A stretch of 64,000 nucleotides of DNA from Reinekea forsetii (GTDB lineage Bacteria > Pseudomonadota > Gammaproteobacteria > Pseudomonadales > Natronospirillaceae). Under the pieces are notes generated by a model, which was given only the letters and a program-made list of their open reading frames with translations, was not told the DNA's origin and searched no databases. Where the stretch lies: assembly GCF_002795845.1 (NCBI RefSeq), contig NZ_CP011797.1:829501-893500 (forward strand). Direction: 5' to 3'. Numbering within the stretch: position 1 is the stretch's first letter; every line of letters begins with the position of its first letter. Below, piece after piece: positions 31,991 through 45,219 of the stretch. A program made the position numbers and the translations under genes.

Positions 31991-33289
31991 ATGCGAATTA
32001 TTGTAGTGGGTGGGGGCGCCGGCGGCTTGGAGCTGGCAACCAAGTTGGGCCGACGCTATGGCAAAAAAAAGCAAGCCGAGGTAACGCTGATCGATCGCAA
32101 CAATAGCCATCTGTGGAAGCCGCTGCTGCATGAGGTCGCCAGTGGCAGCCTGGATATGGGGGTCGATTCTCTGAGCTATAGAGCCCATGCTTTTAACCAT
32201 CATTTTCGTTTTAAGCTCGGTTCCCTCAGCGGTATCGATCGCAGTGAAAAAACCATCACCCTGGCGCCACTGAGCGATGATGAAGGTCAGGCGGTACTGC
32301 CCGAACGCACCCTGAACTACGATATTCTGGTGCTGGCCCTGGGCAGCGTGACCAATGATTTTGGCACCCCTGGCGTGCGCGATAATGCCATTTTCCTCGA
32401 TGCCCCAAGCCAGGCGGAACGCTTCCACCGCAAGTTGTTGAACGGCCTATTGAAGTTGAATGGTCGGGCGCAAAGCGATGCCGATGCGGTTTACCGAATC
32501 GCCATTGTCGGAGCCGGTGCTACCGGCGTGGAGCTGTCGGCCGAATTGCACAATACCTTTAATATTATGCGCGCCTACGGCCTCAGTGAACTGAAGTCGG
32601 AACAACTGAAAATATCCTTGATCGAGGCTGGCCCGCGGATCTTGCCGGCATTGCCGGAACGTATTTCGGCCTCGGCGCACAAGGAGTTGGTGGCTCTGGG
32701 TATCGATGTCAAGATCAATACCCTGGTTGCCCGGTCCGATCCGGGTGCCTTTGTGACCAAAGATGAGCAGGTAATTGATGCCGATATTCTGGTCTGGGCG
32801 GCCGGCATCAAGGTGCCCGACCAGTTTGCCGCCATGTCCGATTTGGCAACCAATCGCATCAACCAATGGCAGGTTCGACCCACCCTGCAGACCACATTAG
32901 ACGATCATATTTATGCCCTCGGTGACTGCGCCTCCTGCCCGATGGCGGACGGTAAGACCGTGCCACCACGCGCCCAATCGGCGCACCAGATGGCCAGTCA
33001 TGTGTACCAAAATATCCGCCTGCAATTGGCCGGCGAAACGACCTTAAAAGCCTATGTCTATACCGATTATGGATCCTTAGTAAATCTCAGTCGCTATTCG
33101 ACGGTCGGCAGTCTGATGGGCAATCTAACGCGTGGTACCATGTTGATCGAGGGTCGTATCGCTCGGTTTATGTATGTCTCCCTCTATCGAATGCATCAAC
33201 TGGCCTTGCACGGTTGGTTTAAGACCGGTCTGCGTATCCTGTCTGATAGTCTGAATAAGGTGCTACGTCCGCGCCTAAAACTGCACTGA
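31991..33289 (+). CDS. ndh: Type II NADH dehydrogenase (NDH-2)
   Basis: A single-subunit, non-proton-pumping NADH:quinone oxidoreductase at the cytoplasmic face of the inner membrane. 432 residues. The FAD-binding N-terminus is [18 protein letters not shown], followed by [24 protein letters not shown]-binding [17 protein letters not shown] and the C-terminal FAD motif [10 protein letters not shown] with [14 protein letters not shown]. The C-terminal amphipathic helices ([20 protein letters not shown]) fit membrane attachment. AGGA lies before the ATG. Transcribed alone and converging on the LysR gene downstream. Confidence 0.95.
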
Positions 33290-33316
33290 GCGAGCTGCTG
33301 CGCCGGCGGCAAGCGG

Positions 33317-34231
33317 CTAAGCGGTGGCGGTCGTTTGGGCAATCCGGTCGACCAGGAAGTCGACCGCGCTTTTAATCTTAGGCACCAGGTAGCGGTGTTT
33401 TTGATAGAGCAGGAATACCGACGCATCCGGGTGCGAAGTGATGGTGACACTCGGTTGCAGGTCGAGCAAAATCAGTTCGCCGCGCGCCAGATAGGGCTCG
33501 GTCACCCATTTGGGCAACAACACTATGCCTGCGCCGGCGAGGGTCTGCGCCATCAACCAGGTGCCATTATTGGAAATGCCCACGGCCGGTGCCGAGACAT
33601 CCTGCCATTGCTGGTCGAAGTAGCTGAGCCAGGGGGTGGGTCCCGTCGGAGTACGAAAATAGAGTCCGGCATGCTGTCGCAGTTCGGCAGGATGGTCGGG
33701 CACGCCAACCCGGGCCAGATAGGTCGGTGCGGCAACCGCAAAGAAACGATTATCGAGCAACTTAATGGCTACCACACGCTCGTTTGGGGCATAGCCCCCG
33801 CGGATCGCAATATCGATATCATCCCGGTTCAGGGTCGACAATTCATCGGTCAAACTGATATCCAAGATGACCTTGGGGTAACGCTTGGCAAATTCGTCCA
33901 ACAGGGGCAGCAGCATGAGCTCACCGAAACCGACCATTGAACTAATTCGCAAGATTCCCATCGGCTCCGTCTGATAGGCGCGCACCGATTCATTGGTTTG
34001 CGCCAATTGGGCCACCAGGGGCCGAACCTGCTTTAAGTAGTTCCGACCCACCTCGGTGAGCTTGACCACCCGAGTCGAGCGCTGGAACAGGTTGGCACCG
34101 AGCTGTTGCTCTAAATCGGCAATACGGCGCGAGACAGACGAGGCCGGCACGGAGAAGCGCCGCGCCGCCTCGGTAAAGTTGCCCGTCTCGGCGACGGCGA
34201 TAAAGTAGTTCAACGCCCTTAATTGGTCCAT
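33317..34231 (-). CDS. LysR-family transcriptional regulator, CrgA-like
   Basis: 304 residues with the N-terminal helix-turn-helix LRALNYFIAVAETGNFTEAARRFSVPASSVSRRIADLEQQLGANLFQRSTR and a C-terminal periplasmic-binding-protein-like sensor domain. The pattern is that of the large CrgA/DmlR-type LysR subgroup. Divergent from the CurA-like NADPH reductase gene with about 150 bases between the starts, so that reductase is the likely target; such pairs often respond to electrophilic or aldehyde compounds. The inducer is unknown. Confidence 0.9.
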   Translation of the reverse strand: MDQLRALNYFIAVAETGNFTEAARRFSVPASSVSRRIADLEQQLGANLFQRSTRVVKLTEVGRNYLKQVRPLVAQLAQTNESVRAYQTEPMGILRISSMVGFGELMLLPLLDEFAKRYPKVILDISLTDELSTLNRDDIDIAIRGGYAPNERVVAIKLLDNRFFAVAAPTYLARVGVPDHPAELRQHAGLYFRTPTGPTPWLSYFDQQWQDVSAPAVGISNNGTWLMAQTLAGAGIVLLPKWVTEPYLARGELILLDLQPSVTITSHPDASVFLLYQKHRYLVPKIKSAVDFLVDRIAQTTATA

Positions 34232-34382
34232 TGGACCTCCATTGTTGTTTTTAAGACAATAAACATTCGCTTATATTGCTGTTTATCTGATTATTTATCT
34301 AGGTAATACTGGTTTCAACAGTTCGGCCGGCATCGAGCCGAGCGGGCTGAGCCCCTTAACCCAGTAATCTTGGAGAAACCCT

Positions 34383-35381
34383 ATGTCGACTTACACCGCA
34401 ATCAACTTGGCCAAACGCCCTTATGGCGCCGCCATCGGCCCTGAACTGTTTGAAGTTGTACACCTGCCAATACCTACCCCCGGAGCGGGCGAGTTACTGA
34501 TTAAGCACACCCATATGTCGCTCGATCCGGCTATGTTGGGCTGGATGAGTCCGGCCACCGATAGCTATATTCCGCCGGTCGATCTGGGTTCGGTGATGCG
34601 CTCGTCCGGTTTTGGTGTGGTCGTTGAATCGAATCACCCAGACTTTGCCGTCGGCGATCAGGTCCAAGGTATGTTCGGCTGGCAGGAGCGGGTGCTCAGC
34701 AACGGCACGGGCCTGACCAAAATTGACGCCACGTTGTCGGCCGAACTGGTGCTCTCGGTGCTGGCCTTGCCGGGGCTTACCGCGACGCAGGGCCTCTATC
34801 GTATTGGTCAACCTAAGGCGGGCGAAACTCTAGTGGTGTCGGGAGCGGCCGGTTCGGTCGGCTCGATCGTTGGCCAGTTGGCCAAGGCTGAAGGCTTACG
34901 GGTTATCGGTGTCGCCGGTGGTGCTGAGAAGTGTGCTTGGCTGATCGATGAGCTGGGCTTCGATGGCGCCATCGATTACAAAGCAGGCAACCTGAACGAT
35001 CAGCTCGAGGCGCTGACCCCCGATGGTATTGATATCTATTTTGAAAATACCGGCGGCGAGATTCAAAATTTGGTCTTTGCGCGCATGAATGCCCATGGCC
35101 GAATCGTTGTCTGCGGCCATATCGCCGACTACCTGACGGCTACGCCGGCACCGGGCCCGAACTGGATGAATATTATCAAGAAGCGCCTGACCATTAAGGG
35201 CTTCACCATGCCCGATCATTTTCAGGATGCACCAGCTCTATTGGGTTTGCTGATGCCTCATCTGATGGCCGGCAAAATCCAATACCGAAGCCATGTCTTG
35301 GACGGTTTGGAATCGGCCATGACCGGCTTGAATTTGTTCTTTAGCGGTGCCAATGAGGGTAAGTTGATCGTTCGACTGTAA
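34383..35381 (+). CDS. NADPH-dependent oxidoreductase, CurA/leukotriene-B4-dehydrogenase-like
   Basis: A zinc-independent medium-chain reductase of 332 residues. Marks: HTHMSLDPAMLGWMS, GVVVESNHPDFAVGDQVQG, LALPGLTATQGLYRIG, the NADPH loop VVSGAAGSVGSIVGQLAKAEGLRVIGVAGG and DIYFENTGGEIQNLVFARMN. No catalytic zinc-binding cysteines are present. Members reduce the double bond of alpha,beta-unsaturated carbonyls such as curcumin or 2-alkenals. GGAG precedes the ATG. Divergent from a LysR regulator that probably controls it. The physiological substrate is unknown. Confidence 0.9.
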   Translation: MSTYTAINLAKRPYGAAIGPELFEVVHLPIPTPGAGELLIKHTHMSLDPAMLGWMSPATDSYIPPVDLGSVMRSSGFGVVVESNHPDFAVGDQVQGMFGWQERVLSNGTGLTKIDATLSAELVLSVLALPGLTATQGLYRIGQPKAGETLVVSGAAGSVGSIVGQLAKAEGLRVIGVAGGAEKCAWLIDELGFDGAIDYKAGNLNDQLEALTPDGIDIYFENTGGEIQNLVFARMNAHGRIVVCGHIADYLTATPAPGPNWMNIIKKRLTIKGFTMPDHFQDAPALLGLLMPHLMAGKIQYRSHVLDGLESAMTGLNLFFSGANEGKLIVRL

Positions 35382-35499
35382 CCTTTCTCCAAGCTTGCGG
35401 CGCGGCCAACCAGTTAGGGTGGTCGCGTCGAGGGTTACTCAAGCTTCGGGTAGCGTTGTGACCAGCGCTTGCTCGGGTTCTAGAGGCAGGGAAACGGAT

Positions 35500-35865
35500 T
35501 CAGTTGAAATAACCGTAGATGGGCAAAACGCTGATGACCACGACGGCCCCAATGAGCAGCCAATAGGTGATGAAAATCACTGGGCTGGCACGCAGCAGCT
35601 GCCACAGCGTCGGCACGCGCCCGGCGTTGACGTCCTCGGTATACTGGTCGCGCATGGCTCGGCTGTGGCCAACCTGAAACTGCTCGATCAACTCACGCGC
35701 GCGAGTAAACTCCTCATCGGTCTTGACCCATATGGCCGCGACGGAGATACCCCAGCGGCCGGCTGTGGTTTCATAAAAATCTATTTCCTGATCGACCAAG
35801 AGCGACCGAACCAGGTCGGCTTCTTCAACCGGAACATTATTGAGGCGAAAGGCAAGTTTGGCCAT
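35500..35865 (-). CDS. Small membrane-anchored protein, DUF6164-like
   Basis: 121 residues. The N-terminal ~70 residues form a small alpha/beta domain (MAKLAFRLNNVPVEEADLVRSLLVD, FYETTAGRWGISVAAIWVK), like the signal-transducing DUF2007 fold. A basic linker and one C-terminal transmembrane helix (about 98-117) follow. This matches proteins I know as DUF6164 in other gammaproteobacteria; the name is from memory and function is unknown. It stands alone between the CurA-like gene and the terminator of the next operon. Confidence 0.7.
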   Translation of the reverse strand: MAKLAFRLNNVPVEEADLVRSLLVDQEIDFYETTAGRWGISVAAIWVKTDEEFTRARELIEQFQVGHSRAMRDQYTEDVNAGRVPTLWQLLRASPVIFITYWLLIGAVVVISVLPIYGYFN

Positions 35866-35910
35866 GAGGAATCCAGCATAACAAATTCAGGGCATCATAC
35901 CGTTAAACCG

Positions 35911-35937
35911 GAAACAGACCAATTGCTGGTCTGTTTC
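35911..35937 (-). terminator. Long hairpin closing the five-gene operon
   Basis: GAAACAGACCA, five-base loop, TGGTCTGTTTC: a perfect 11-bp stem about 60 bases after the MFS stop. It has no clean T-run beyond the TTTC in the stem, so it could be a terminator or an mRNA end stabiliser. Confidence 0.55.
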
Positions 35938-35998
35938 AGAAGAGCGAAAGTCGGTCGCACGGCGCCCTAAACAGTCGATAGCATAAAGATAAGGGCCA

Positions 35999-37252
35999 TT
36001 AGGCTCGCTGTACGCTTGTGGCCGCATCCGCGCGGCTGGGGTCCGCGACGCGGATGCGAATCCTGAGCACCAGCAATGCCGATACCATGGCAATCACGCC
36101 GGTCACCAATAGCACCAACTGATAGTTGCCATTGAGATCATAGAGGTTGGCGCCTAATTGGGTGGCGAGAACCGCCCCTATCTGATGGAACAGCCAGACA
36201 AAGCCAAAGGCAAAACCCTTGATCTCCTTGCTGAAGATAGTCAAGGACACCACCGACGTGCCGACCACCGTACCCATAAAAGACAGGCCAAAGACCGCCG
36301 CGAAGAGCAGAACGCCAAGCTGGCTCGGCAGTGCGAAGAGAATGAATACCGCCACCGCACGCAACAGATAAAACCCCGATAGCACCAGGCGAGCCGGATA
36401 GCGATCACACATAAGACCCGCTGCGATGCCGCCAATAAACTCTGCAACACCCAGTACGACCAGACTCAGGGCAATAAAATTGGCGCTTAAGGCCATGTCC
36501 TTTAGTTGTGCCACCAGGTGGATATCGACAAAGGCCATAGTGACGCCACAGCCTAGAAACCCTAAAGAGAGGTAGTAGAAGTTGGCATTGGTAAAAACCC
36601 TGGCCAAGCGTTGCCGGAACCTCTCAGGCACAGCTGGCTCCGGTTGATCAGCGACCGGTACCTGGCCAACAGCACTAAAACGCAACACGACAATCGCCAG
36701 TAGGGTCAGCGGCAGAACAAACACCAAGCCGGTGGCCAAATAGATATCCCGCCAACTCAAGAACGCCTCGAGATACAACCAGAGCGGTGCCAGAAACACA
36801 AAGCCCAGGGCCGCACCGTTGGTCACCAGAGCATAAATGAGCCCCCTGAGCTTGGGTGCGTTGATCTCCTCGACCAACACGCCCAATGAAACATAGGAAA
36901 TGGCCGTATAAGCGAAGGCCGCGCCGATGCCATAGAGCAATAAGAAGGACGTAAAACTCTGGGTCAGGGCCATTAACAGAAATAGCAGCCCGCTGAAAAA
37001 CAGGCCACCAATGATTGTGTGTTTGGCACCGATTCTATCGGCTATATAGCCGACAATGGGCGAGCTGATGCCAAAGACCGCCATAAAGAGCGTACCAGAC
37101 CAGGCAAATTCACCACGACTGAGGCCAAAATCGTCGGACATTGCCACAAAGAAAACTTGGTATGACGTTTTAATGCTGGTCGACAACAGGGACACCAGAA
37201 TCCCGAAGCCAACGATTAGCAGTAACAGAGCGTGCCTTTTTATCAGAGTCAT
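35999..37252 (-). CDS. MFS transporter, last gene of the five-gene operon
   Basis: A 417-residue major facilitator protein with about 12 transmembrane helices. The motif-A-like loop after helix 2 is GYIADRIGAKHTIIGG, and the matching loop in the second half is GLMCDRYPARLVLSG. The fold and length resemble the oxalate/formate-antiporter and monocarboxylate-type MFS group, so it may move a small organic acid or amino-acid-like product. Its ATG overlaps the TGA of the upstream DUF2817 gene by four bases (ATGA), a strong sign of translational coupling. In context it may export, or import, the molecule made or processed by the operon. Confidence 0.9.
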   Translation of the reverse strand: MTLIKRHALLLLIVGFGILVSLLSTSIKTSYQVFFVAMSDDFGLSRGEFAWSGTLFMAVFGISSPIVGYIADRIGAKHTIIGGLFFSGLLFLLMALTQSFTSFLLLYGIGAAFAYTAISYVSLGVLVEEINAPKLRGLIYALVTNGAALGFVFLAPLWLYLEAFLSWRDIYLATGLVFVLPLTLLAIVVLRFSAVGQVPVADQPEPAVPERFRQRLARVFTNANFYYLSLGFLGCGVTMAFVDIHLVAQLKDMALSANFIALSLVVLGVAEFIGGIAAGLMCDRYPARLVLSGFYLLRAVAVFILFALPSQLGVLLFAAVFGLSFMGTVVGTSVVSLTIFSKEIKGFAFGFVWLFHQIGAVLATQLGANLYDLNGNYQLVLLVTGVIAMVSALLVLRIRIRVADPSRADAATSVQRA

Positions 37253-38343
37253 AGACTGCCTTGTTTGGGTTTAGAGTGAATGAGCTGAATTTGCCGTTCT
37301 AATATTTGCCAAAACGACTCGATAACGCCTGCTCGCCAGCGCCGTGATTGAGGGATGAAAATTTCTTTTAGCCGGTCGGCAGACTGGCGATGTGGCTGCT
37401 CTCCTCGGTTATGCCAATAGTGGTAATTTTCAAGCGCCAACGCACAAAGAACACTCAGACCACCTCGAGTCCCATACTCCAATGTAATTGCCTTATCGGG
37501 CTCGGGTAATCGACTTGACAGAGTACCTCTGAGCTGTGAACTGATGCTGACATCATTGGCGGTATGGACGAGATTGCAATGCTTGAAAAAGCGATGATTG
37601 TCTTGATATTGCGCACTCGATTTCTGTGCTTCGGACAAGATATAGGCTTGGCCCCGCTTCCCCAAGCCGGTATGAATATCCATCAAATACAAAGAATTTG
37701 ATTGATACTTCACCAACAGATCTTGCCAGAATTGCGCAGACGCGGATGCAGTGGTTCCACCAAAAAAAAGATCACGTTCGTTTTCATATTGCCCTGCCGT
37801 AATTAAACTTTGCAAAGCTGCTTTTTTCCCCTGGATGATTTGCCAAACCAACATGAGAGAAAGTTTTAGGGATTGGTAGCCATTTGAGGTCTTGCGCAAC
37901 TGCCGAATAACAGCATGCTCCCGATTTTTGTCTATTATGGCTGTTGGCCTTGAAGTCAAAAAATTTCGGTTGATATCCACATTATATTCATTGCTACGTC
38001 GAAAATATGAAAAGCCAAAGGGATTGAGGGCATGCACCAGCACAATTCGACAATTTCCCAATTTCAAAGCATCGATCTGATCCAGCACTGCAAGTTGGCA
38101 AGCCGACCCAGCAAAACCTTCTACGCCATGGGTGCCGCTAACAATAAACAGAACGTTGGAACTGCGTGGATCGCCCAATTCAACCGTGTCCGCAGTCAAT
38201 GCCTCGCCGGCTACACCCTTGCCGGCAAAGGTGTAGGTGGTCACTACTAGACCCCGGACCTGAGCTTTGCTGTTGAAGCGGCTTCGGGCCTCGACATAGG
38301 AACTCGAGAAATAGTCACTGCGCTGAGCACAATTCATGATCAT
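37249..38343 (-). CDS. DUF2817 metallohydrolase (M14 carboxypeptidase-like)
   Basis: 364 residues of the DUF2817 family, related to M14 zinc carboxypeptidases. The zinc site is visible: His72 and Glu75 in SGTHGVEGFAGSA and His224 in MDIHTGLG. A family block HALNPFGFSYFRR and NVDINRNFLT holds substrate-binding Arg/Asn, and TLEYGTRGG probably gives the catalytic Glu. No signal peptide, so the enzyme is cytoplasmic. It begins one base after the diiron gene stop codon and overlaps the MFS gene. In this operon it could hydrolyse an amide or peptide bond of the product or a precursor, for example removing a protecting acyl or aminoacyl group. That role is inference. Confidence 0.88.
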   Translation of the reverse strand: MIMNCAQRSDYFSSSYVEARSRFNSKAQVRGLVVTTYTFAGKGVAGEALTADTVELGDPRSSNVLFIVSGTHGVEGFAGSACQLAVLDQIDALKLGNCRIVLVHALNPFGFSYFRRSNEYNVDINRNFLTSRPTAIIDKNREHAVIRQLRKTSNGYQSLKLSLMLVWQIIQGKKAALQSLITAGQYENERDLFFGGTTASASAQFWQDLLVKYQSNSLYLMDIHTGLGKRGQAYILSEAQKSSAQYQDNHRFFKHCNLVHTANDVSISSQLRGTLSSRLPEPDKAITLEYGTRGGLSVLCALALENYHYWHNRGEQPHRQSADRLKEIFIPQSRRWRAGVIESFWQILERQIQLIHSKPKQGSL

Positions 38344-38344
38344 T

Positions 38345-39067
38345 CTAGGCCGCCAAAATCGCGGGGCAATGGCGGTGGGCGACGCCGCTATACATATTCC
38401 AAAAGAGTTGACAGGTATGGTTTACGGCAAAAAGTGCCTGATCTTGGAGATCTTTAGTCGTGCAAATATCCGTGACAAGGTTTAGGCCCTCATTAACATG
38501 GCCAATATCTTCTTTTTGGTGAACGGAGAAAAACAATAGGTCCTGCTCGGTTAAACCATAGAGCTTACCCAGTATCTCATGCCTGGCAGCACCCGCTCGA
38601 GTTTCCAAGTTTTGACCTTCGCTTGCGATCATGACCGCCGCGGCACCGATATGATATTGGCTACGGTCCTTTACGGCGGTCATTCGATAGTCTATTAATG
38701 CCTGGGTTTCAGGGTACGCCTTGGCAGCATCGCGTTCTGCATCGGAAATCCCTAACGCCCTAATAAAATTTTCCATCAGAACGACGTGGTTTCGCGTTTT
38801 AGAAATCCGACCCGTCTCCTCTTCAAATAGGTTAAACAACAGTCTCCTTTTATGCTTAGCCAGCGGGCAGTAAAAAAACAGATGTTCGACGTATTCTAGG
38901 AAGTGTTTGGTGAGCTGATAACCTTGTAATGCCATGACTTTCATTAGTGCCAGGTTACGCTCGGGTTTTACCAACTCGCCAATGATCGGATGGTCTAAGG
39001 TAAGATGATTATGTAAGTCAGATTCTAATTTCAGTCGAAACTCGCTGGGGCTATGCGCTTTGTTCAT
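38345..39067 (-). CDS. Heme-oxygenase-like diiron oxidase family protein
   Basis: 240 residues, all-helical, of the TenA/PqqC/heme-oxygenase-like fold. It carries His183-x3-Asp187-x2-His190 (VHQKEDIGH) and Glu150 (IASEGQN), with Glu82-84 and His94 (EEETGRISKTRNHVVLMENF) as further candidate ligands. This matches the metal-site pattern of HDO enzymes such as CADD, UndA, SznF and BesC, which use O2 to cleave, decarboxylate or N-oxidise amino-acid or fatty-acid substrates. It overlaps the end of the upstream PLP-enzyme gene by 17 bases, with AAGGAG inside that gene. Its substrate is unknown; the PLP partner suggests an amino acid. Metal ligation by the first pair is less certain than the HxxxDxxH set. 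Confidence 0.8.
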   Translation of the reverse strand: MNKAHSPSEFRLKLESDLHNHLTLDHPIIGELVKPERNLALMKVMALQGYQLTKHFLEYVEHLFFYCPLAKHKRRLLFNLFEEETGRISKTRNHVVLMENFIRALGISDAERDAAKAYPETQALIDYRMTAVKDRSQYHIGAAAVMIASEGQNLETRAGAARHEILGKLYGLTEQDLLFFSVHQKEDIGHVNEGLNLVTDICTTKDLQDQALFAVNHTCQLFWNMYSGVAHRHCPAILAA

Positions 39068-40301
39068 GATTTAGCTCCTTAAATTGGCCTGTTATATCCG
39101 TTTGGGTTAGGTGTACTAGGGCATTCTCAATATCCGCAAGAAGATCGCGACTGTCTTCTAAGCCAACTGACACTCTGATTAGGGTATCGCTAATACCAAA
39201 AATGTTTTTTTGCTTCGAGGTCAAGCGACCGTGGGTAGTGCTCGCAGGATGAGTGACAAGGGTCTTGGTATCGCCAATATTGGTACTATTGGTGATTAAC
39301 TCCAGGCGATCAATAAAGCGCCATGCCCGGGCCTTGTCCCCCTTGAGTTCGAAAGAGACAATGCCACCGTGGAGGTTGTTGGCGTGTTGTTTGAGTGCCA
39401 AGTCGCGCTGTGGGTGATCGTTCAGGCCAGGGTAATAAACTGTGTCAACATAAGGGCTATTGGTCAGATATTGCGCTAATTTTTGGGCGTTTTCGGAGTG
39501 CATCCGCATACGAATATCAAGAGTTTCAAGGCTCTTCAATACAATCCAGGCGTTAAAGGGGCTAATGCAGTTACCCTTGGAACGCACGATGGCGCGCATC
39601 TGTTCGCATACGCTCGCATCGCCTAAGACGACGCCGCCGCCCACACGGCCTTGGCCATCGAGGAACTTGCCGGCAGAATGAACCACAATATCGGCACCAA
39701 GCCCAATGGGTTGCGTCATAATGGGCGTGCCCGAGGTGTTGTCGACTACGACCAGCGCGCCATGTTGGTGGGCTTTAGCACTCAGTCGCTCTATGTTGGT
39801 CAGCCTCAGGTTTGGATTGGACGGGGTCTCAAAGAACACCAAACGAGTTTTATCGCTAATTTTATTCTGCCAGTTTTTTTCTTGGCTCAAGTCGACAAAA
39901 TCGATAGAAATGCCCCAAGTATTGTAGAAATTAACAAACAAAAATGCAGTTGTGCCGAATACATTTCCACCCACGACGACCTGATCCCCAGGTCTAAGGT
40001 AGGCCATAAGGACCGAGTCAATTGCGGCCATGCCTGAACTAAAAGCCACGCCACCATAGGCATTTTCCAATGCGGCGATGCGCTGCTCAAACGCGCTCAC
40101 GGTTGGATTTGAAATTCGGCTATAAACATGACCTATCGACCTGCCCGCAAATTTCTCTTCGGCATCTTGTGCGCTTTCAAAAACGTAGCTACTGGTTAGC
40201 GCCAGCGGTTCGCAATTAACCGTCGAGGTATCAATGGCTGCACCTTCACGTATCGCCAGGGTGGCCAGAGACAGTGTCCTTCTGCTTTTACTGATCGTCA
40301 T
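39051..40301 (-). CDS. Cys/Met-metabolism PLP enzyme, MetZ-like
   Basis: 416 residues of the cystathionine gamma-synthase / O-succinylhomoserine sulfhydrylase family. Marks: YSRISNPTVSAFEQRIAALE, AFSSGMAAIDSVL, FFETPSNPNL, VVDNTSGTPI and the PLP Lys212 in HSAGKFLDGQGR. The usual SATK reads SAGK here, a Thr-to-Gly change next to the lysine. The housekeeping role would be homocysteine synthesis, but the gene is embedded in an operon of non-methionine genes, and members of this fold also act in natural-product pathways (gamma-replacement or elimination). AAGGGAG precedes the ATG. Housekeeping metZ remains a possible reading. Confidence 0.88.
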   Translation of the reverse strand: MTISKSRRTLSLATLAIREGAAIDTSTVNCEPLALTSSYVFESAQDAEEKFAGRSIGHVYSRISNPTVSAFEQRIAALENAYGGVAFSSGMAAIDSVLMAYLRPGDQVVVGGNVFGTTAFLFVNFYNTWGISIDFVDLSQEKNWQNKISDKTRLVFFETPSNPNLRLTNIERLSAKAHQHGALVVVDNTSGTPIMTQPIGLGADIVVHSAGKFLDGQGRVGGGVVLGDASVCEQMRAIVRSKGNCISPFNAWIVLKSLETLDIRMRMHSENAQKLAQYLTNSPYVDTVYYPGLNDHPQRDLALKQHANNLHGGIVSFELKGDKARAWRFIDRLELITNSTNIGDTKTLVTHPASTTHGRLTSKQKNIFGISDTLIRVSVGLEDSRDLLADIENALVHLTQTDITGQFKELNHEQSA

Positions 40302-40327
40302 TGGAGCTCCCTTAATGGTATCGGTAG

Positions 40328-40861
40328 TTACCGTGCATGCAGTTCCTCGATACGCGCTGTCATAAACAGTCCTGCATGCAGTTTTCCTTGGTAGTGTGAA
40401 TAGTCGGTTAAACGGCCGTAGGTTTCAAAGCCCAAAGCATGCCAAAGTTTGGCGCTCGGGGTGTCCTCTCTAACGTCAAAAATAAACCGCGTTACCCCCA
40501 TGCTGGTGGCCTTCTGACATACCTTTCTCAGGCCCATTTTAAGCAAGCCCGCGCCTCGAAATGTAGGCTCAATAATCACTTTACTCAGTTCGGCTATATG
40601 ACATGACGTCTTATGGGCGATTTGAGTAACCACAACAACGCCTGCGGCCCGCCCAGACATTACGTCGTCAATTAATAGGATATGAATAATATGATTGTTC
40701 AGTTTTGCCCCCAAGTGAGCCACATAATCGGCGATCAAGGCGCTGTCGGATTCACCAAAGCCGAGCATGCCATCATCAGCAATACTGGCCATGAGTAGAT
40801 GTTCCAGTTTAACGGCGTCTTGCGGCTGTATTTCCGTCAGCCATCGATATTGAAGGTCCAT
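40328..40861 (-). CDS. GNAT N-acetyltransferase, first gene of the five-gene operon
   Basis: 177 residues with the acetyl-CoA-binding loop PTFRGAGLLKMGLRKVC (R-G-x-G pattern) and the LWHALGFETYGRLTDY segment of GNAT motif B. It should transfer an acetyl group to an amine. AAGGA stands before the ATG, and the PLP-enzyme gene starts 26 bases after its stop. As the first gene of an operon with a diiron oxygenase, a PLP enzyme and a transporter, it may acetylate an intermediate or protect the host from the product; this is inference. The promoter should lie in the palindrome-rich region upstream. Confidence 0.88.
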   Translation of the reverse strand: MDLQYRWLTEIQPQDAVKLEHLLMASIADDGMLGFGESDSALIADYVAHLGAKLNNHIIHILLIDDVMSGRAAGVVVVTQIAHKTSCHIAELSKVIIEPTFRGAGLLKMGLRKVCQKATSMGVTRFIFDVREDTPSAKLWHALGFETYGRLTDYSHYQGKLHAGLFMTARIEELHAR

Positions 40862-41029
40862 GGTTATCCTTAAAATTGTGTCGATGGCGGATATGCATTT
40901 AGTCCGCCTTTATTCCCTTATCAGAAACATTACAAACCCAGTTCTCCTTGGGGCCATAGAAATGTAACTGAAGCCTTGATCAAACCGGGCTTGTACCTTC
41001 GTATGAGCGGAAAAATGACAGGTAAGTTT

Positions 41030-41056
41030 TGTGAAATATTTTTGTCAAAATTCACA
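41030..41056. promoter_or_regulatory. Dyad TGTGAA-N15-TTCACA
   Basis: Six-base perfect arms, with further partial symmetry inside (TTTT/AAAA). It lies about 170 bases upstream of the GNAT start and resembles a CRP/FNR-class or GntR-class half-site pair but with wider spacing. Confidence 0.4.
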
Positions 41057-41205
41057 TTATCTCAATAAACTTTAGACCTACTTCACAAAAAGCTCACAAT
41101 TTCGGTTATAAATACATCAATAAAAAGTCTAAGAGCATGCTGAGGCTGACTCGAAGCAGGATGCTGCGCGGGGGTTTAAATCACCGGCAAAGTCTATAAA
41201 CTCTC

Positions 41206-41226
41206 AGTGAAATGTGAGTTTTCACT
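41206..41226. promoter_or_regulatory. Dyad AGTGAAA-N7-TTTCACT upstream of the cytochrome gene
   Basis: Perfect seven-base arms separated by TGTGAGT, about 30 bases before the cytochrome c start codon, and related in sequence to the dyad at 41030. Confidence 0.45.
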
Positions 41227-41257
41227 CAGAATAGTGCCCAATTATTAAGGATCCAAT

Positions 41258-41788
41258 ATGAGTTTTAGATCGAAAACTGTTCGTCATCTGTCCATTGGTT
41301 TGTTAATTACCGGTGCCGGGTTGGCCTGGGCCCATAACGGTGCAATGGGGATCGTTAAGGACCGCATGGATGCTATGAGTAGCATGGCGGAGTCGGTTAA
41401 GACGTTGAAGCCGATGATGCGTGGCCGGACGACATATAACGCCGAGACGGTGCAGGCGGCGGCGCAATCCATAGCCCGCCTGGGCGGGGTCCATCTTACG
41501 GAGATGTTTCCTGAAGGCAGTTTGACCGAGGCCAGCGAAGCGAAGCCCGCCATTTGGCAGCAATGGTCTCAGTTTGAAACCTATGCCCAGGAATTGACGC
41601 TGTATGCCGATGGCTTGGCCGCGTCTGCCGCCAATGAGGTATCGCTTAATGATGGGGTCGCGGCAATCGAAGGCTCAAGTCAGCCCATGACCGTTGAGCA
41701 ACTGGCATTGATGCCCCCGGCGGATGTTTTCGGTCTTTTGACTAAAAACTGCGCCGGCTGCCATAAGACGTTCCGCAGTAAAAAGTAA
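41258..41788 (+). CDS. Periplasmic cytochrome c (c'/c556-like)
   Basis: 176 residues. The signal peptide ends in GLAWA before HNGAMG. The mature protein is helical with a C-terminal CAGCH heme c motif (KNCAGCHKTFRSKK), the position typical of class II cytochromes c' and c556. MKDRMDAM-like GIVKDRMDAMSSMAE supplies a Met that could be the sixth ligand, as in c556. It probably carries electrons in the periplasm; partner unknown. Preceded by AAGGA and the TGTGA-type dyad. A GGCGGC/GCCGCC stem at 41796-41815 follows but lacks a T-run. Confidence 0.88.
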   Translation: MSFRSKTVRHLSIGLLITGAGLAWAHNGAMGIVKDRMDAMSSMAESVKTLKPMMRGRTTYNAETVQAAAQSIARLGGVHLTEMFPEGSLTEASEAKPAIWQQWSQFETYAQELTLYADGLAASAANEVSLNDGVAAIEGSSQPMTVEQLALMPPADVFGLLTKNCAGCHKTFRSKK

Positions 41789-41898
41789 TGATGGCGGCGG
41801 CTGTTTTTGGCCGCCACGCCCAAGCTGCAAACTAAAAACGGCGGCAACAATCCGAACCCGTCTACTATTCATCCCAACGTAAAATCTAACAAAAAACA

Positions 41899-41910
41899 TA
41901 ACGCGCGTTA
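41899..41910. promoter_or_regulatory. LacI-type operator TAACGCGCGTTA (distal)
   Basis: A perfect 12-bp palindrome with central CG, the hallmark of LacI/GalR-family operators, 107 bases upstream of a related site at 42006. The LacI-family gene at 46724 is the likely regulator. Confidence 0.65.
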
Positions 41911-41924
41911 ATTGATAAAACAAA

Positions 41925-41933
41925 CCCCCCCCC
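41925..41933 (+). repeat. Poly-C tract (C9) between the two operators
   Basis: Nine consecutive Cs upstream of the transporter promoter. Such tracts slip during replication and would change operator spacing by single bases. Confidence 0.9.
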
Positions 41934-41971
41934 TTAAAATCGATCTTTTATGTATTTTATTACAAAAATTC

Positions 41972-42000
41972 TTGCCTTATTCGGCAATAAGTAATACTTT
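41972..42000 (+). promoter_or_regulatory. Candidate promoter of the alpha-galactoside operon
   Basis: TTGCCT (41972-41977), 17 bases, TACTTT (41995-42000). The -10 box is weak, but the proximal operator begins six bases downstream, right at the expected transcription start. Confidence 0.4.
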
Positions 42001-42005
42001 AATGA

Positions 42006-42019
42006 CTAACACGCGTTAG
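42006..42019. promoter_or_regulatory. LacI-type operator CTAACACGCGTTAG (proximal)
   Basis: Near-perfect dyad (CTAAC/GTTAG arms) sharing the CGCGTTA core with 41899-41910. It overlaps the predicted transcription start, the usual repression position. Confidence 0.65.
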
Positions 42020-42044
42020 CAATTAAAGCAAAAAAGGTCAGAAT

Positions 42045-42929
42045 ATGATGTCAGTCCCACATAGCACACGCACATCGCCTTATGCCTATCTGTTTATTTT
42101 ACCGGCGCTGATAGGTTTTTTGGTGTTTTATGCTTGGCCTGCAGCACGGGCTGTCGCGATCAGCTTTACCGACTGGAATCTGCTCAGCGATTCAACTTTT
42201 GTCGGTTTCGACAACTATCTAGAAATGTTTCAGGACGAGCAGTTCCTCAACGGGATGAAGCTATCGGGTTACTACGTGCTACTGAACATTCCGTTGCAAA
42301 CGGCATTAGGCCTGTTTCTGGCGGTGGCGATGGACCGCCTGACTAAGTCGATCTTTGTTAAGGCGACGCTGTTACTGCCCTATTTGATGTCCAACGTATT
42401 GGTCGCGATGGTCTGGCTGTGGATGCTCGATCCAATATTGGGAATCATCAATGCGCTGGTCGACACTCTCGGGCTGAGCACTCAGGCATATTTGGGTGAT
42501 CCCGACCAAGCGTTGGTTTCTGTAGCCGCCATCAATATCTGGCGCCATATGGGTCTGGTCGCGATGTTGTTTTTGGCCGGGTTGCAGACCATTCCGCGCT
42601 ACCTCTACGAGGCGGCCGGTCTAGAGGGGGCCTCAGAGTGGCAGATGTTCCAGAAGATTACCCTGCCGTTGCTGCGCCCAGTGATGGTCTTTGTTTTGGT
42701 GACAAGTGTGACCGGTTCTTTTCAAATTTTTGACACTATAGCGGTAACAACCTCGGGCGGACCGCTCGATTCAACCCGGGTCATCGTCTACTACATAGTT
42801 CAAAACGCTTTCAGCTTTTACAGGATGGGCTATGCCTCCGCTATGTCGGTAACGCTATGCGCCGCAATGCTGCTGTATACGCTGTTTCAAATGCACATTA
42901 TGAGGGCTTCCGAAAGTGACCTTGCTTAA
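42045..42929 (+). CDS. Sugar ABC transporter permease 1 (MalF/UgpA type)
   Basis: 294 residues, six predicted transmembrane helices, CUT1 class. The cytoplasmic EAA loop is YEAAGLEGASEWQMFQKITLPLL near the expected position, where the ATPase docks. Start at ATG 42045; ATG 42048 is equally possible. It overlaps the next permease gene by 14 bases. The operon continues with a binding protein and a GH4 enzyme, so it imports an alpha-galactoside such as melibiose or raffinose, or a related sugar. No ATPase gene is present in the operon. Confidence 0.92.
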   Translation: MMSVPHSTRTSPYAYLFILPALIGFLVFYAWPAARAVAISFTDWNLLSDSTFVGFDNYLEMFQDEQFLNGMKLSGYYVLLNIPLQTALGLFLAVAMDRLTKSIFVKATLLLPYLMSNVLVAMVWLWMLDPILGIINALVDTLGLSTQAYLGDPDQALVSVAAINIWRHMGLVAMLFLAGLQTIPRYLYEAAGLEGASEWQMFQKITLPLLRPVMVFVLVTSVTGSFQIFDTIAVTTSGGPLDSTRVIVYYIVQNAFSFYRMGYASAMSVTLCAAMLLYTLFQMHIMRASESDLA

Positions 42930-43803
42930 TAAATTGACGCCGGCACGCATTGTTGCCTGGGTGGTTCTGGTTTTGATGTTATTGGTAACGGTGTTTCCGC
43001 TGGTCTTCGTGGTGAAAACCTCGCTGGTGCCGGCGAGTGATCTCTATACCACCTCGACTGACTTGCTGCCCAGGCATGCCACGCTGATTCATTATAAAAA
43101 AGTACTCGGCATGTTGAGCACCGAGGAGTCGATTGCGGCCGGTGGTTCGGGTGCGAACTTTAATATTTCACAGTCGCTAATAAATTCAATTTTGTTTACC
43201 GGCATTATCGTCATTGCACAGACCTTTAACTGTGCCCTGGCAGCCTATGCCTTTGCCCGCATCCCTTTTCGCGGGTCGAAAGTTTTGTTTGGGTCGTTCG
43301 TTGCATCGATGATGGTGCCCGGGGTAGTTACTATGATTCCGAATTTTATTTTAATTCGCGATTTGGGTTTATTGAACTCAATGGCAGGCATGGTTGCCCC
43401 GTTTTTTTTAATGCACGGTTTCACAGTGTTTTTTCTCAGGCAGTTTTTTCTGTCCCTTCCTAAAGAAATCGAAGAGGCTGCTTGCATTGATGGCGCAGGC
43501 CCCTTCGTTATATTTTTTAAGATCGCTCTGCCGCTAAGCTGGGCGCCCTTAATGACGATTGCAACGCTGACAACTATTAATATGTGGAATGAGTTTCTAT
43601 GGCCGTTTTTGATCGGTAAAGAAGCCAGCATGCATACCTTGCCTGTTGCCTTGCAATCGTTTAAATCGCAGACCCCTCAAGGTCAACCGGACTGGAGTGG
43701 GCTGATGGCGGCAACCGTCATTGCCACCATTCCAACCGTTGCTATGCTGTTCTTTTTTGGACGCAGGATTGTCGAATCCGTGCAGTTCACTGGTGGTAAG
43801 TAA
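42916..43803 (+). CDS. Sugar ABC transporter permease 2 (MalG/UgpE type)
   Basis: 295 residues with six predicted transmembrane helices and the EAA loop EEAACIDGAGPFVIFFKIALPLS. It should pair with the preceding permease to form the CUT1 channel. The predicted start is GTG at 42916 inside the end of the previous gene, a coupled arrangement. The C-terminal FFFGRRIVESVQFTGGK is the conserved end of the MalG family. The binding-protein gene follows after 22 bases. Confidence 0.92.
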   Translation: MTLLNKLTPARIVAWVVLVLMLLVTVFPLVFVVKTSLVPASDLYTTSTDLLPRHATLIHYKKVLGMLSTEESIAAGGSGANFNISQSLINSILFTGIIVIAQTFNCALAAYAFARIPFRGSKVLFGSFVASMMVPGVVTMIPNFILIRDLGLLNSMAGMVAPFFLMHGFTVFFLRQFFLSLPKEIEEAACIDGAGPFVIFFKIALPLSWAPLMTIATLTTINMWNEFLWPFLIGKEASMHTLPVALQSFKSQTPQGQPDWSGLMAATVIATIPTVAMLFFFGRRIVESVQFTGGK

Positions 43804-43825
43804 ACTAAAATAATGGAGTAATAAC

Positions 43826-45127
43826 ATGAAAATAAAAACAATGGCTTTGACTTCTTTAGCGCTGGGTATCGCATTCCAGGCCAATGCTGGCGAGGTAAAG
43901 TACGTCTTATGGGATTCCAACCAACTGCCAGCTTATGAGCAATGTGCAGTGGATTTTACCGCTAAGAACCCAGGCATTAATGTCGCTATAACCCAGTCCG
44001 GTTGGGACGATTACTGGACTGCGTTGTCGACCGGATTTGTGTCCGGTACGGCGCCAGATGTGTTCACTAACCACCTGGCAAAATATCCTGAATTTGCTAA
44101 AAACAAACAGTTAGTCGATCTTAGTGAATTGGTTAAAAAAGATAGCGTGAATACCTCACAATATTCACCCGGCCTGTACCAGGTTTGGGGCAAAGATGGC
44201 GCACAGTATGGTCTCCCGAAAGATTGGGATACCATCGCTATGATCGTCAACATGGATATGGCGCGCAGTGCGGGTGTGAGTCTGAACGAACTCAATAACA
44301 TGACTTGGAACCCACAAGACGGCGGCAGTTTCGAGCAAGTTGTGCGCAAATTAACGGTCGATAAAAATGGCAATAACGCCGCGACCGGTGCTTTTGACAG
44401 CAAGAATGTCGAGGTGTTCGGCTATCAGAATCCCGGTTCGGGCGGCATGATGGGGCAAACTGAATGGAGTCACTTCGCGGTGTCCAACGGCTTTAAATAT
44501 CAGGATTCTGCTTGGAACGGCAAGTTTTACTACGATTCTCCAAAGCTGGCTGAAACCTTGGCCTATCTGACCTCTATGGCCACGAATGGCTTATCGGCTG
44601 ACTTTAAAAATTCCCAGTCACTCGGTGCCGATGCGATGTTTATGGCCGGAAAAACGGCGATCGTGCCACAGGGTTCTTGGATGATCACCCACTTCGCTAC
44701 CAATTCTACGTTTGATTATCAGTGGATACCCCTGCCGGTTGGACCCACAGGCAAGCGTGCTACCATGTTTAATGGTTTGGCCGATTCTATCTGGAGTGGC
44801 TCGAAGAACAAAACCGAAGCTTGGGAATGGGTTAAGTACCTAGGCTCAGCAGATTGCCAAAATGTTGTCGCTGAACGGGGTGTGGTTTTTCCTGCGATTA
44901 AAGGCATGGCCGAAAAAGCCATTGCTGCTCAAACGGCGCGCGGCATCGATTCTTCTGCGTTCTTAACCATGGCCAACAGCAACACTTTCCTAGCGCCAAT
45001 TGCCAACAACGGTGCGCGGATTAACGAACTGGTCAATGGCGCGATCGAATCGATATTACTGGGTAAGGACGACGCTCAGGATGCCTTGACTAAGGTAAAT
45101 AAAAAAGTATTGAAACTGAACAAGTAA
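43826..45127 (+). CDS. Sugar ABC transporter periplasmic binding protein
   Basis: 433 residues of extracellular solute-binding family 1. The signal peptide MKIKTMALTSLALGIAFQANA is cleaved before GEV. Family pattern: FTAKNPGINVAITQSGWDDYWTALSTGFVSGTAPDVF, GLPKDWDTIAMIVNMDM and the late FMAGKTAIVPQGSWMI. It captures the sugar in the periplasm for the two permeases encoded upstream. GGAG precedes the ATG. A perfect 10-bp intercistronic hairpin (45172-45199) follows and could raise its expression relative to the GH4 gene by protecting the upstream mRNA. Confidence 0.92.
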   Translation: MKIKTMALTSLALGIAFQANAGEVKYVLWDSNQLPAYEQCAVDFTAKNPGINVAITQSGWDDYWTALSTGFVSGTAPDVFTNHLAKYPEFAKNKQLVDLSELVKKDSVNTSQYSPGLYQVWGKDGAQYGLPKDWDTIAMIVNMDMARSAGVSLNELNNMTWNPQDGGSFEQVVRKLTVDKNGNNAATGAFDSKNVEVFGYQNPGSGGMMGQTEWSHFAVSNGFKYQDSAWNGKFYYDSPKLAETLAYLTSMATNGLSADFKNSQSLGADAMFMAGKTAIVPQGSWMITHFATNSTFDYQWIPLPVGPTGKRATMFNGLADSIWSGSKNKTEAWEWVKYLGSADCQNVVAERGVVFPAIKGMAEKAIAAQTARGIDSSAFLTMANSNTFLAPIANNGARINELVNGAIESILLGKDDAQDALTKVNKKVLKLNK

Positions 45128-45171
45128 CTAACCCTAGGCTTACCACAGACTAAGCCCATCATCTCGACCAT

Positions 45172-45199
45172 CCACTGCCGCTGACCACTGCGGCAGTGG
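45172..45199 (+). other. Intercistronic hairpin between binding-protein and GH4 genes
   Basis: CCACTGCCGC, eight-base loop, GCGGCAGTGG: perfect 10-bp stem without a T-run. It resembles the REP-like stabilisers found after malE-type genes. Confidence 0.75.
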
Positions 45200-45219
45200 A
45201 CTTCTGATAGGAAGCGCCA

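Follow-up and report, generated by a model that had tools for sequence, protein, structure and literature searches.

Members of the heme-oxygenase-like diiron protein (HDO) superfamily, including BesC, UndA, SznF, HrmI, FlcE/FlcD, AetD, PolF, MboA and CADD, share a fold and a motif of three histidines and three carboxylates, and occur in clusters for amino-acid small molecules. About a dozen HDOs have a validated function, against more than 10,000 predicted members, according to a 2026 review (PMC13108848); from this and the other papers cited by PMC number, we draw on the portions available to us. Here we describe an HDO of Reinekea forsetii, encoded in a five-gene operon at positions 35,999–40,861 of a 64,000-nucleotide stretch of the genome (contig NZ_CP011797.1, positions 829,501–893,500), hereafter the window. 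It has the fold, motif and cluster setting in common with the superfamily, but differs in its own sequence signature and its standing GNAT acyltransferase partner, and the reactions described in the available portion of the review do not include that of an HDO of this type (PMC13108848). HDO clusters that modify amino acids are already known; what is new is a GNAT–HDO core combined with exchangeable, unrelated donor enzymes. The operon belongs to an apparently undescribed family of gene clusters, or cassettes, built in this way.

Several described systems resemble the cassette in part. The beta-ethynylserine pathway likewise pairs an HDO, BesC, with a Cys/Met-type pyridoxal phosphate (PLP) enzyme, BesB. 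The cassette differs by its GNAT and, in Streptomyces, by a homoserine O-acyltransferase-family gene (HTS); its PLP enzyme can be replaced by a nicotianamine synthase (NAS)-like or SbnA-like enzyme, and no halogenase was seen among the neighbours scanned. The D-cycloserine pathway (DcsA–E) follows a like logic, in which an acyl-activated hydroxy amino acid and an N–O nucleophile are joined by a PLP enzyme and a Met-type acyltransferase takes part; it differs in using serine (C3) rather than homoserine, and a heme hydroxylase and arginase rather than an HDO and a GNAT. SbnA and nicotianamine synthase/CntL have homologues that fill the third-enzyme slot in relatives of the operon, though not in the window itself. 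The SbnA-like cassette proteins score below the SbnA cut-off, and no SbnB or opine dehydrogenase turned up, in work that included no search aimed at them. In the fluopsin C cluster (FlcA–E) a joining enzyme also acts first, FlcB adding cysteine to fumarate, and HDO oxidation follows; its joining chemistry is different, it has two HDOs, and its enzyme set is not that of the cassette (PMC11363339). The available portions of the literature on clusters with AZE synthases (AzeJ, VioH) describe no HDO, and the NAS-like domain of one cassette (L043) had no PDB match named AZE synthase at E values up to 1. The gvg (FVG) cluster of Pseudomonas places an HDO-like protein, GvgC, in a cluster for an amino-acid antimetabolite, but with a carbamoyltransferase, a class III aminotransferase and a formyltransferase (PMC8067088); we rejected it as the same system because its enzymes, as described, differ (PMC8067088, PMC8064604). 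Among the matches listed in the open-licence PubMed Central literature we found no description of the cassette gene set, which may be in print elsewhere, and the available portions of the 2026 HDO review (PMC13108848) and of a mangotoxin paper (PMC13185094) do not mention it.

All five genes of the operon lie on the minus strand. The first encodes the GNAT acyltransferase (40,328–40,861, 177 aa; Pfam Acetyltransf_1, 30 bits against a cut-off of 20.7), followed by a Cys/Met-type PLP enzyme (39,051–40,301, 416 aa; Cys_Met_Meta_PP, 420 bits, cut-off 27), the HDO (38,345–39,067, 240 aa; Haem_oxygenas_2, 79.3 bits, cut-off 28.9), an M14-like zinc hydrolase of the DUF2817 family (37,249–38,343, 364 aa; DUF2817, 243 bits, cut-off 23) and an MFS transporter (35,999–37,252, 417 aa; MFS_1, 115 bits, cut-off 33.4). 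The original prediction, made from the sequence of the window, had named these families, spacings of +26, −17, +1 and −4 bases, and key residues in each enzyme, and all of this was borne out. Each domain exceeds its Pfam cut-off, the open reading frame (ORF) coordinates give the same spacings, and the residues are in place: Lys212 in the PLP enzyme, E83-X10-H94, E150 and H183-X3-D187-X2-H190 in the HDO, and H72-x-x-E75, H224 and E289 in the DUF2817 protein. Ligand roles in the HDO were assigned via alignment to CADD, and the roles of Lys212 and of the four DUF2817 residues are presumed from familiar motifs. The same gene set is kept in other genomes, so the arrangement is not due to chance.

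By domain, ligand positions and predicted fold, the protein is a member of the HDO superfamily. Its AlphaFold2 model (pLDDT 91.0, pTM 0.88) matched CADD (8va9) with Foldseek TM scores of 0.80/0.90; in the fold ranking CADD came first, followed by UndA, PqqC and HrmI, and BesC ranked below these. By sequence, the nearest solved relatives are CADD and another 4-aminobenzoate synthase (9pj4). The six predicted metal ligands, E83, H94, E150, H183, D187 and H190, are invariant in 35 aligned HDO sequences. Relatives of the protein, 46–68% identical to it, share a family signature of E-X10-H, GYQLTK and SEGQNLE. The E-X10-H spacing is four residues longer than that of CADD, the result of an insertion between the first two ligands.

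We collected 31 of these relatives (46–67% identical) from one scan of genome contigs and, not counting that of the window, another three close HDOs (59–66%) from a set of 96 related genomes; four further matches at 25–31% identity were not used. The resulting 34 loci (L014–L047) span five phyla. To map their domains, phmmer was run on every ORF of 90 aa or more, with family names taken from single representatives; several loci end at contig ends, making absences less sure than presences. A GNAT is present in 33 of the 34 (the exception is L040), adjoining the HDO or close to it in most; in L026 the two are over 3 kb apart and on opposite strands. GNAT and HDO form a single chain in L030, L037 and L046, with a linker that has neither a stop nor a Met, and GNAT is fused to a NAS-like domain in L043–L045. 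What may be the smallest form of the pathway is found in a Prochlorococcaceae metagenome-assembled genome, where a 744-aa HDO–NAS–GNAT chain is followed by an MFS gene (L039:5919-8153). The original prediction had named scattering of the five genes in relatives as an outcome that would tell against it, and such scattering was not observed. GNAT, HDO, PLP enzyme and MFS occur together in 22 of the 34 loci, and a related MFS gene accompanies all 22 PLP-type loci as well as L039.

The third enzyme is what varies. Cys/Met-type PLP enzymes fill the slot in 22 loci, NAS-like enzymes in seven (L031, L037, L038, L039, L043, L044 and L045) and SbnA-like enzymes in two (L014 and L026), three show none, and no locus has two together. 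After HDOs at least 85% identical were collapsed, 29 clusters including that of the window remained, of which 18 are PLP-type, six NAS-type, two SbnA-type and three without a third enzyme. The chance that all seven NAS-like loci would fall among the 12 loci without a PLP enzyme is 1.5e-4 on the assumption of independent loci, which does not hold. Mapped onto the HDO tree, the third-enzyme label changes seven times (the minimum is three), and none of 200 shuffles was as low; starred branches force at least three changes for NAS. Seven changes indicate that the donor enzyme has been exchanged repeatedly. The HDO of the window groups with that of the SbnA-type locus L014, which is 66% identical, on a branch that is not starred (support 88/75). 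Among solved structures, thermonicotianamine synthase (3o31, 73 bits) and its relatives (73–74 bits) come closest to the NAS-like domain of L043, with CntL at 20 bits.

Some cassettes have further genes around them. L030, L037, L043–L045 and L046 form a larger subtype in which a KASIII-like enzyme, an AMP-ligase and Amidohydro_2 surround the HDO/GNAT core, in Bacteroidota (with an ABC transporter) and Xanthomonadales-type hosts; non-ribosomal peptide synthetase (NRPS) or AMP-ligase neighbours occur in subtypes other than that of the window. Some 4 kb from the PLP-type cassette of L015 there is a gene for a siderophore synthetase, whose domains are IucA/IucC, FhuF and acetyltransferase (L015:13290-15797). 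Two large ORFs with Pfam ToxA_N, the N-terminal domain of a dermonecrotic toxin, adjoin the cassette of Pseudomonas pudica (L017:2500-8114), and one assembly of Pseudomonas indoloxydans has two different PLP-type cassettes, L024 on contig 121 and L025 on contig 98.

A rule of one donor per cassette, drawn beforehand, was then applied to loci outside this sample. A draw of 398 genomes from the phylum gave two with the HDO, that of the window and G1051; among 299 genomes of the family of G1051 there were nine loci, G1051 included, of which eight were new once L106 was dropped as a repeat of L027. A draw of 369 genomes from the class likewise gave two, that of the window and G438, which was treated as a repeat of L038/L040 and not counted. 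The rule held in seven of the eight new loci: two were PLP-type (L097, L107) and five SbnA-type (L108–L112), each with a GNAT and without a second donor. These do not amount to eight independent tests, since a single family supplied all of them and a single genus four of the five SbnA-type loci. The remaining locus is a decayed PLP-type cassette, with an HDO lacking its N-terminal part, an MFS gene, an AraC gene and a PLP gene lacking its middle, and without a GNAT (L113:8454-10942).

By sequence phylogeny, the PLP enzymes of the cassettes are a clade of their own beside housekeeping MetZ. The tree held 22 cassette rows, including the window but not L047, which is nearly the same as L024, and as paralogs only those recovered as loci in the paralog search. 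The cassette proteins form one group (support 96/93), next to seven MetZ paralogs from cassette-bearing genomes (96/90). The label changes twice on this tree instead of once because L079, labelled a paralog, falls inside the cassette group; its sequence matches that of the L021 cassette gene exactly. A genuine MetZ-like paralog in the genome of L021, L069, was outside the tree; it carries HSATK and is 60.5% identical to the MetZ L077, against 54.2% to its best cassette row. The window protein sits on a long branch, so that its exact placement is less sure (92/86). The two NCBIfam equivalog cut-offs for MetZ lie at 522 and 510 bits. The seven paralogs pass both, with 593–715 and 518–638 bits, and so are housekeeping MetZ; the window enzyme (484 and 455 bits) and that of L017 (511 and 473 bits) are below both. 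Seven near-fixed residue differences separate the 22 cassette rows from the seven MetZ rows. The most telling is T211G, directly before the catalytic Lys212 in the HSAGK motif: this position is Gly in 20 and Ala in two of the 22 cassette rows, and Gly in two out-of-sample copies, while in 19 non-cassette paralogs it is Thr in 18 and Ser in one (L012, from the genome of the window). A clear match to housekeeping metZ, which the original prediction had named, together with methionine auxotrophy on loss, as a second outcome that would tell against it, was thus not found: the window enzyme scores below both cut-offs and belongs to the separate group of the tree.

Profile and fold searches agree that tabtoxin resistance protein (1ghe) is the solved structure closest to the GNAT. 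It scored 74 bits in the profile search, the next match being at 34 bits, and it topped the fold search at TM 0.88/0.91 with an AlphaFold2 model of pLDDT 94.4. This likeness in sequence and modelled fold suggests acylation of an amino acid, either as a synthetic step or as self-protection. The MFS protein is, from its sequence, a proposed exporter. The DUF2817 protein, which had been presented as part of the operon's set, is not core: apart from the window it is found in one of the 34 loci (L028), which is also its single occurrence among the 22 PLP-type loci, and seven of those 22 have an alpha/beta-hydrolase instead. Its match to Peptidase_M14 (18.9 bits, E = 0.0013) is below the cut-off of 21.6. 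We propose on sequence grounds that it is an accessory or optional deacylase.

We think it probable, if only by a little, that the operon is a horizontally spread cassette that makes and exports an acylated non-canonical amino acid; no single product takes more than a small share of that belief. In favour of this reading are the near-constant pairing of GNAT and HDO with its fusions, the single donor per locus, the separate clade of the PLP enzymes and, in L033 and L035, the HTS gene next to that for the PLP enzyme. The PLP enzyme, by its sequence, is proposed to carry out gamma-substitution on O-acyl-homoserine. It would take O-acetyl- or O-succinyl-homoserine to the vinylglycine ketimine, whose gamma-carbon would then accept a nitrogen or oxygen nucleophile; the resulting side chain would bear a group linked through N or O. 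The half that is constant in the family would be modified by the GNAT and by the HDO, the latter using O2, in one of two orders. Before coupling, the HDO might oxygenate a nitrogen to a hydroxylamine that the GNAT would acylate, yielding a hydroxamate-type O- or N-nucleophile; hydroxyurea plays a like role in the D-cycloserine pathway. Alternatively, after coupling, the HDO might oxidise and the GNAT acylate the constant half, for example by an oxidative decarboxylation. The MFS protein would then export the product, and the DUF2817 protein in the window, or the alpha/beta-hydrolase in some relatives, may remove the acyl group.

Precedents exist for each donor and for the oxidation. SbnA couples glutamate to activated serine. 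NAS-type enzymes transfer the aminocarboxypropyl group of S-adenosylmethionine (SAM) (PMC11794875), and Cys/Met PLP enzymes add diverse nucleophiles to vinylglycine ketimine, LolC being believed to use proline (PMC10367076). Enzymes of all three kinds can therefore link a nucleophile to the beta- or gamma-carbon of an alpha-amino acid that enters as a C3 or C4 unit. Oxidative decarboxylation is described for FlcE and UndA (PMC11363339). The HDO family of the window seems to tolerate either a C3 or a C4 donor, and since the HDO is little changed when a C4 donor is swapped for a C3 one, we infer that the target of HDO and GNAT is the half that all cassettes share. We further put forward, tentatively and at somewhat less than an even chance of being right, that a fixed GNAT–HDO core oxidises and acylates a constant nitrogenous half, that three unrelated donors supply C3 or C4 halves, and that the HDO reaction is new to the superfamily. 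The donors would be the MetZ-like PLP enzyme with O-acyl-homoserine, the NAS-like enzyme with SAM and the SbnA-like enzyme with activated serine. A candidate for the new reaction is N-oxygenation of a small amine to an O-nucleophile, leading to aminooxy, canaline-like amino acids; an alternative candidate would convert an N-carboxyalkyl amino acid, by oxidative decarboxylation, into a compound with a group of the oxime, nitrile or isonitrile type.

Several observations weigh against biosynthesis of this kind. The case is inferred from sequence and predicted structure, and we know of no product for any relative of the cassette. The PLP enzyme could catalyse elimination instead of substitution, and that of the Streptomyces locus L033 passes one of the MetZ cut-offs (538 bits for 522) and fails the other (485 for 510). 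The CoA loop of the GNAT is degenerate: by eye, the final G/A of R/Q-x-x-G-x-G/A, which we take to be the canonical motif, is absent in 34 of 34 aligned rows, so that acetyl-CoA may not be the donor. No third enzyme was found in L030, L040 and L046, either in the domain map or by tblastn with seven donor queries. The NAS-like and SbnA-like assignments are read from sequence only, and for the SbnA-like proteins of L014, L026, L108 and L112 the best NCBIfam family is SbnA at 319–324 bits (next, 243–270), below its cut-off of 350. An AraC/DJ-1 regulator adjoins 20 of the 22 PLP-type loci, and such regulators are commonly tied to amine catabolism. The window has no AraC gene adjoining the operon, and no HTS-family gene was found in its genome; in the Streptomyces loci L033 and L035 an HTS gene lies between those for the PLP enzyme and the GNAT. 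The genome of the window does encode a MetX-like protein (459 bits, cut-off 500) and has its own MetY-like gene, so the cell should have a supply of O-acyl-homoserine and could make methionine without the operon.

The regulator would suit an operon for catabolism or detoxification, in which the PLP enzyme resembles canavanine-gamma-lyase, the HDO and hydrolase degrade the rest, and the MFS protein imports or expels a non-canonical amino acid. A title cited in PMC10367076 describes canavanine-gamma-lyase as a PLP enzyme found in Pseudomonadaceae and Rhizobiales, and the likeness of the GNAT to tabtoxin resistance protein would fit detoxification. Against this stand the synthetic NAS-like and SbnA-like replacements, the HTS neighbour and the NRPS and AMP-ligase neighbours, and we consider such a function unlikely.

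The prediction of an operon for an amino-acid metabolite with export stands in so far as HDO, PLP enzyme, GNAT and MFS keep company in other genomes; the analogy drawn at the same time to BesB/BesC was not supported. Under that analogy the HDO would produce an alkene by fragmenting a lysine-type amino acid, and elimination or rearrangement by the PLP enzyme would then give an unsaturated amino acid. BesB is of the same PLP type, and BesC (7twa) is a weak profile match to the HDO family (E = 1.9e-4) and also matches by fold (TM 0.74/0.79), but CADD, UndA and HrmI outrank it by fold, and neither a halogenase nor any other Bes gene was seen among neighbours in the domain map and Pfam scans, which covered selected ORFs. 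Replacement of the PLP enzyme by NAS-like or SbnA-like enzymes, or its HTS neighbour, fits BesB-type elimination poorly and points to side-chain joining by substitution, making a Bes-like route improbable.

We attach a similarly low probability to a nicotianamine- or opine-like metallophore, for which the PLP or NAS enzyme would join an aminocarboxypropyl group to an amino acid nitrogen and the HDO would finish the chelator. The affinity of the L043 domain to thermonicotianamine synthase rather than CntL, the MFS gene and the siderophore synthetase near L015 favour this idea, which leaves the GNAT unexplained. No TonB receptor was present among eight large neighbour ORFs, picked by size from five PLP-type loci and not by systematic search; six were of other families, one was without a match and one was the siderophore synthetase. 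No opine dehydrogenase turned up near the cassettes, although no search was aimed at it.

A housekeeping methionine operon with unrelated passengers, its PLP enzyme being MetZ, is very improbable. The best NCBIfam matches of the window enzyme are indeed O-succinylhomoserine sulfhydrylases (OSHS), as is its best PDB match (9iqh), and the Streptomyces enzyme passes one cut-off. We rejected this explanation on the PLP tree, on the scores of the window and L017 enzymes against those of true MetZ, and on the loss of Thr before the PLP lysine; the MetY-like gene of the genome also speaks against it. Scarcely any credence is due to a CADD-type p-aminobenzoate synthase serving folate metabolism, rejected despite CADD and 9pj4 being the nearest solved relatives because the HDO scores 83 bits against a TIGR04305 cut-off of 200 and has Ile29 in the column of the sacrificial Tyr of CADD, which we take to be Tyr27, in addition to the insertion between its first two ligands.

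The surroundings of the operon gave few further clues. A 396-bp region (40,862–41,257), presumably the promoter region, separates it from a divergent cytochrome c' gene (41,258–41,788, plus strand) with no known link to the cassette. This region had been called palindrome-rich; it does hold six inverted repeats, all short and imperfect (80–92% complementary). The long hairpin noted at the other end is real, a perfect hairpin with a 5-nt loop at 35,911–35,937, lying between the 3' end of the operon and the DUF6164 gene (35,500–35,865, minus strand) that directly follows; its stem is 11 bp only, and the terminator scan does not list it. Promoter and terminator scans were near chance level around the operon: a consensus scan found ten promoter-like sites in 35,700–41,300 against 6.8 (standard deviation 2.5) in shuffles, which is not a clear enrichment. 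Rfam had no match within 33,000–45,200.

The four upstream genes of the operon have a G+C content of 0.47–0.50 and the MFS gene 0.54, against 0.53 for the window and 0.55–0.58 for four near flanking genes. Two further neighbours, an ABC permease (0.51) and a binding protein (0.49), are about as low, so operon G+C is weak evidence of transfer. The DUF6164 gene was recovered in five of six congeners searched, and its flanks are not common to those five, so the empty-site comparison says nothing on insertion. The HDO was absent from the six other species of the genus searched and present in four of 390 genomes drawn from the order, counting that of the window; it had no match in plasmids, and 30 pattern matches in viral contigs gave none that was confirmed. 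Patchy distribution and low G+C together fit a sporadically inherited cassette.

With two genes in L039, the cassette is small enough for its complete pathway to be reconstituted from a handful of proteins, and donor exchange gives hints of the substrates: homoserine esters, SAM and activated serine. If the proposal of a fixed core with exchangeable donors is true, a single position in an amino-acid pathway can be occupied by enzymes that are unrelated, and the family would hold an oxidative reaction that is new and, probably, amino acids of a new class with antimetabolite potential.

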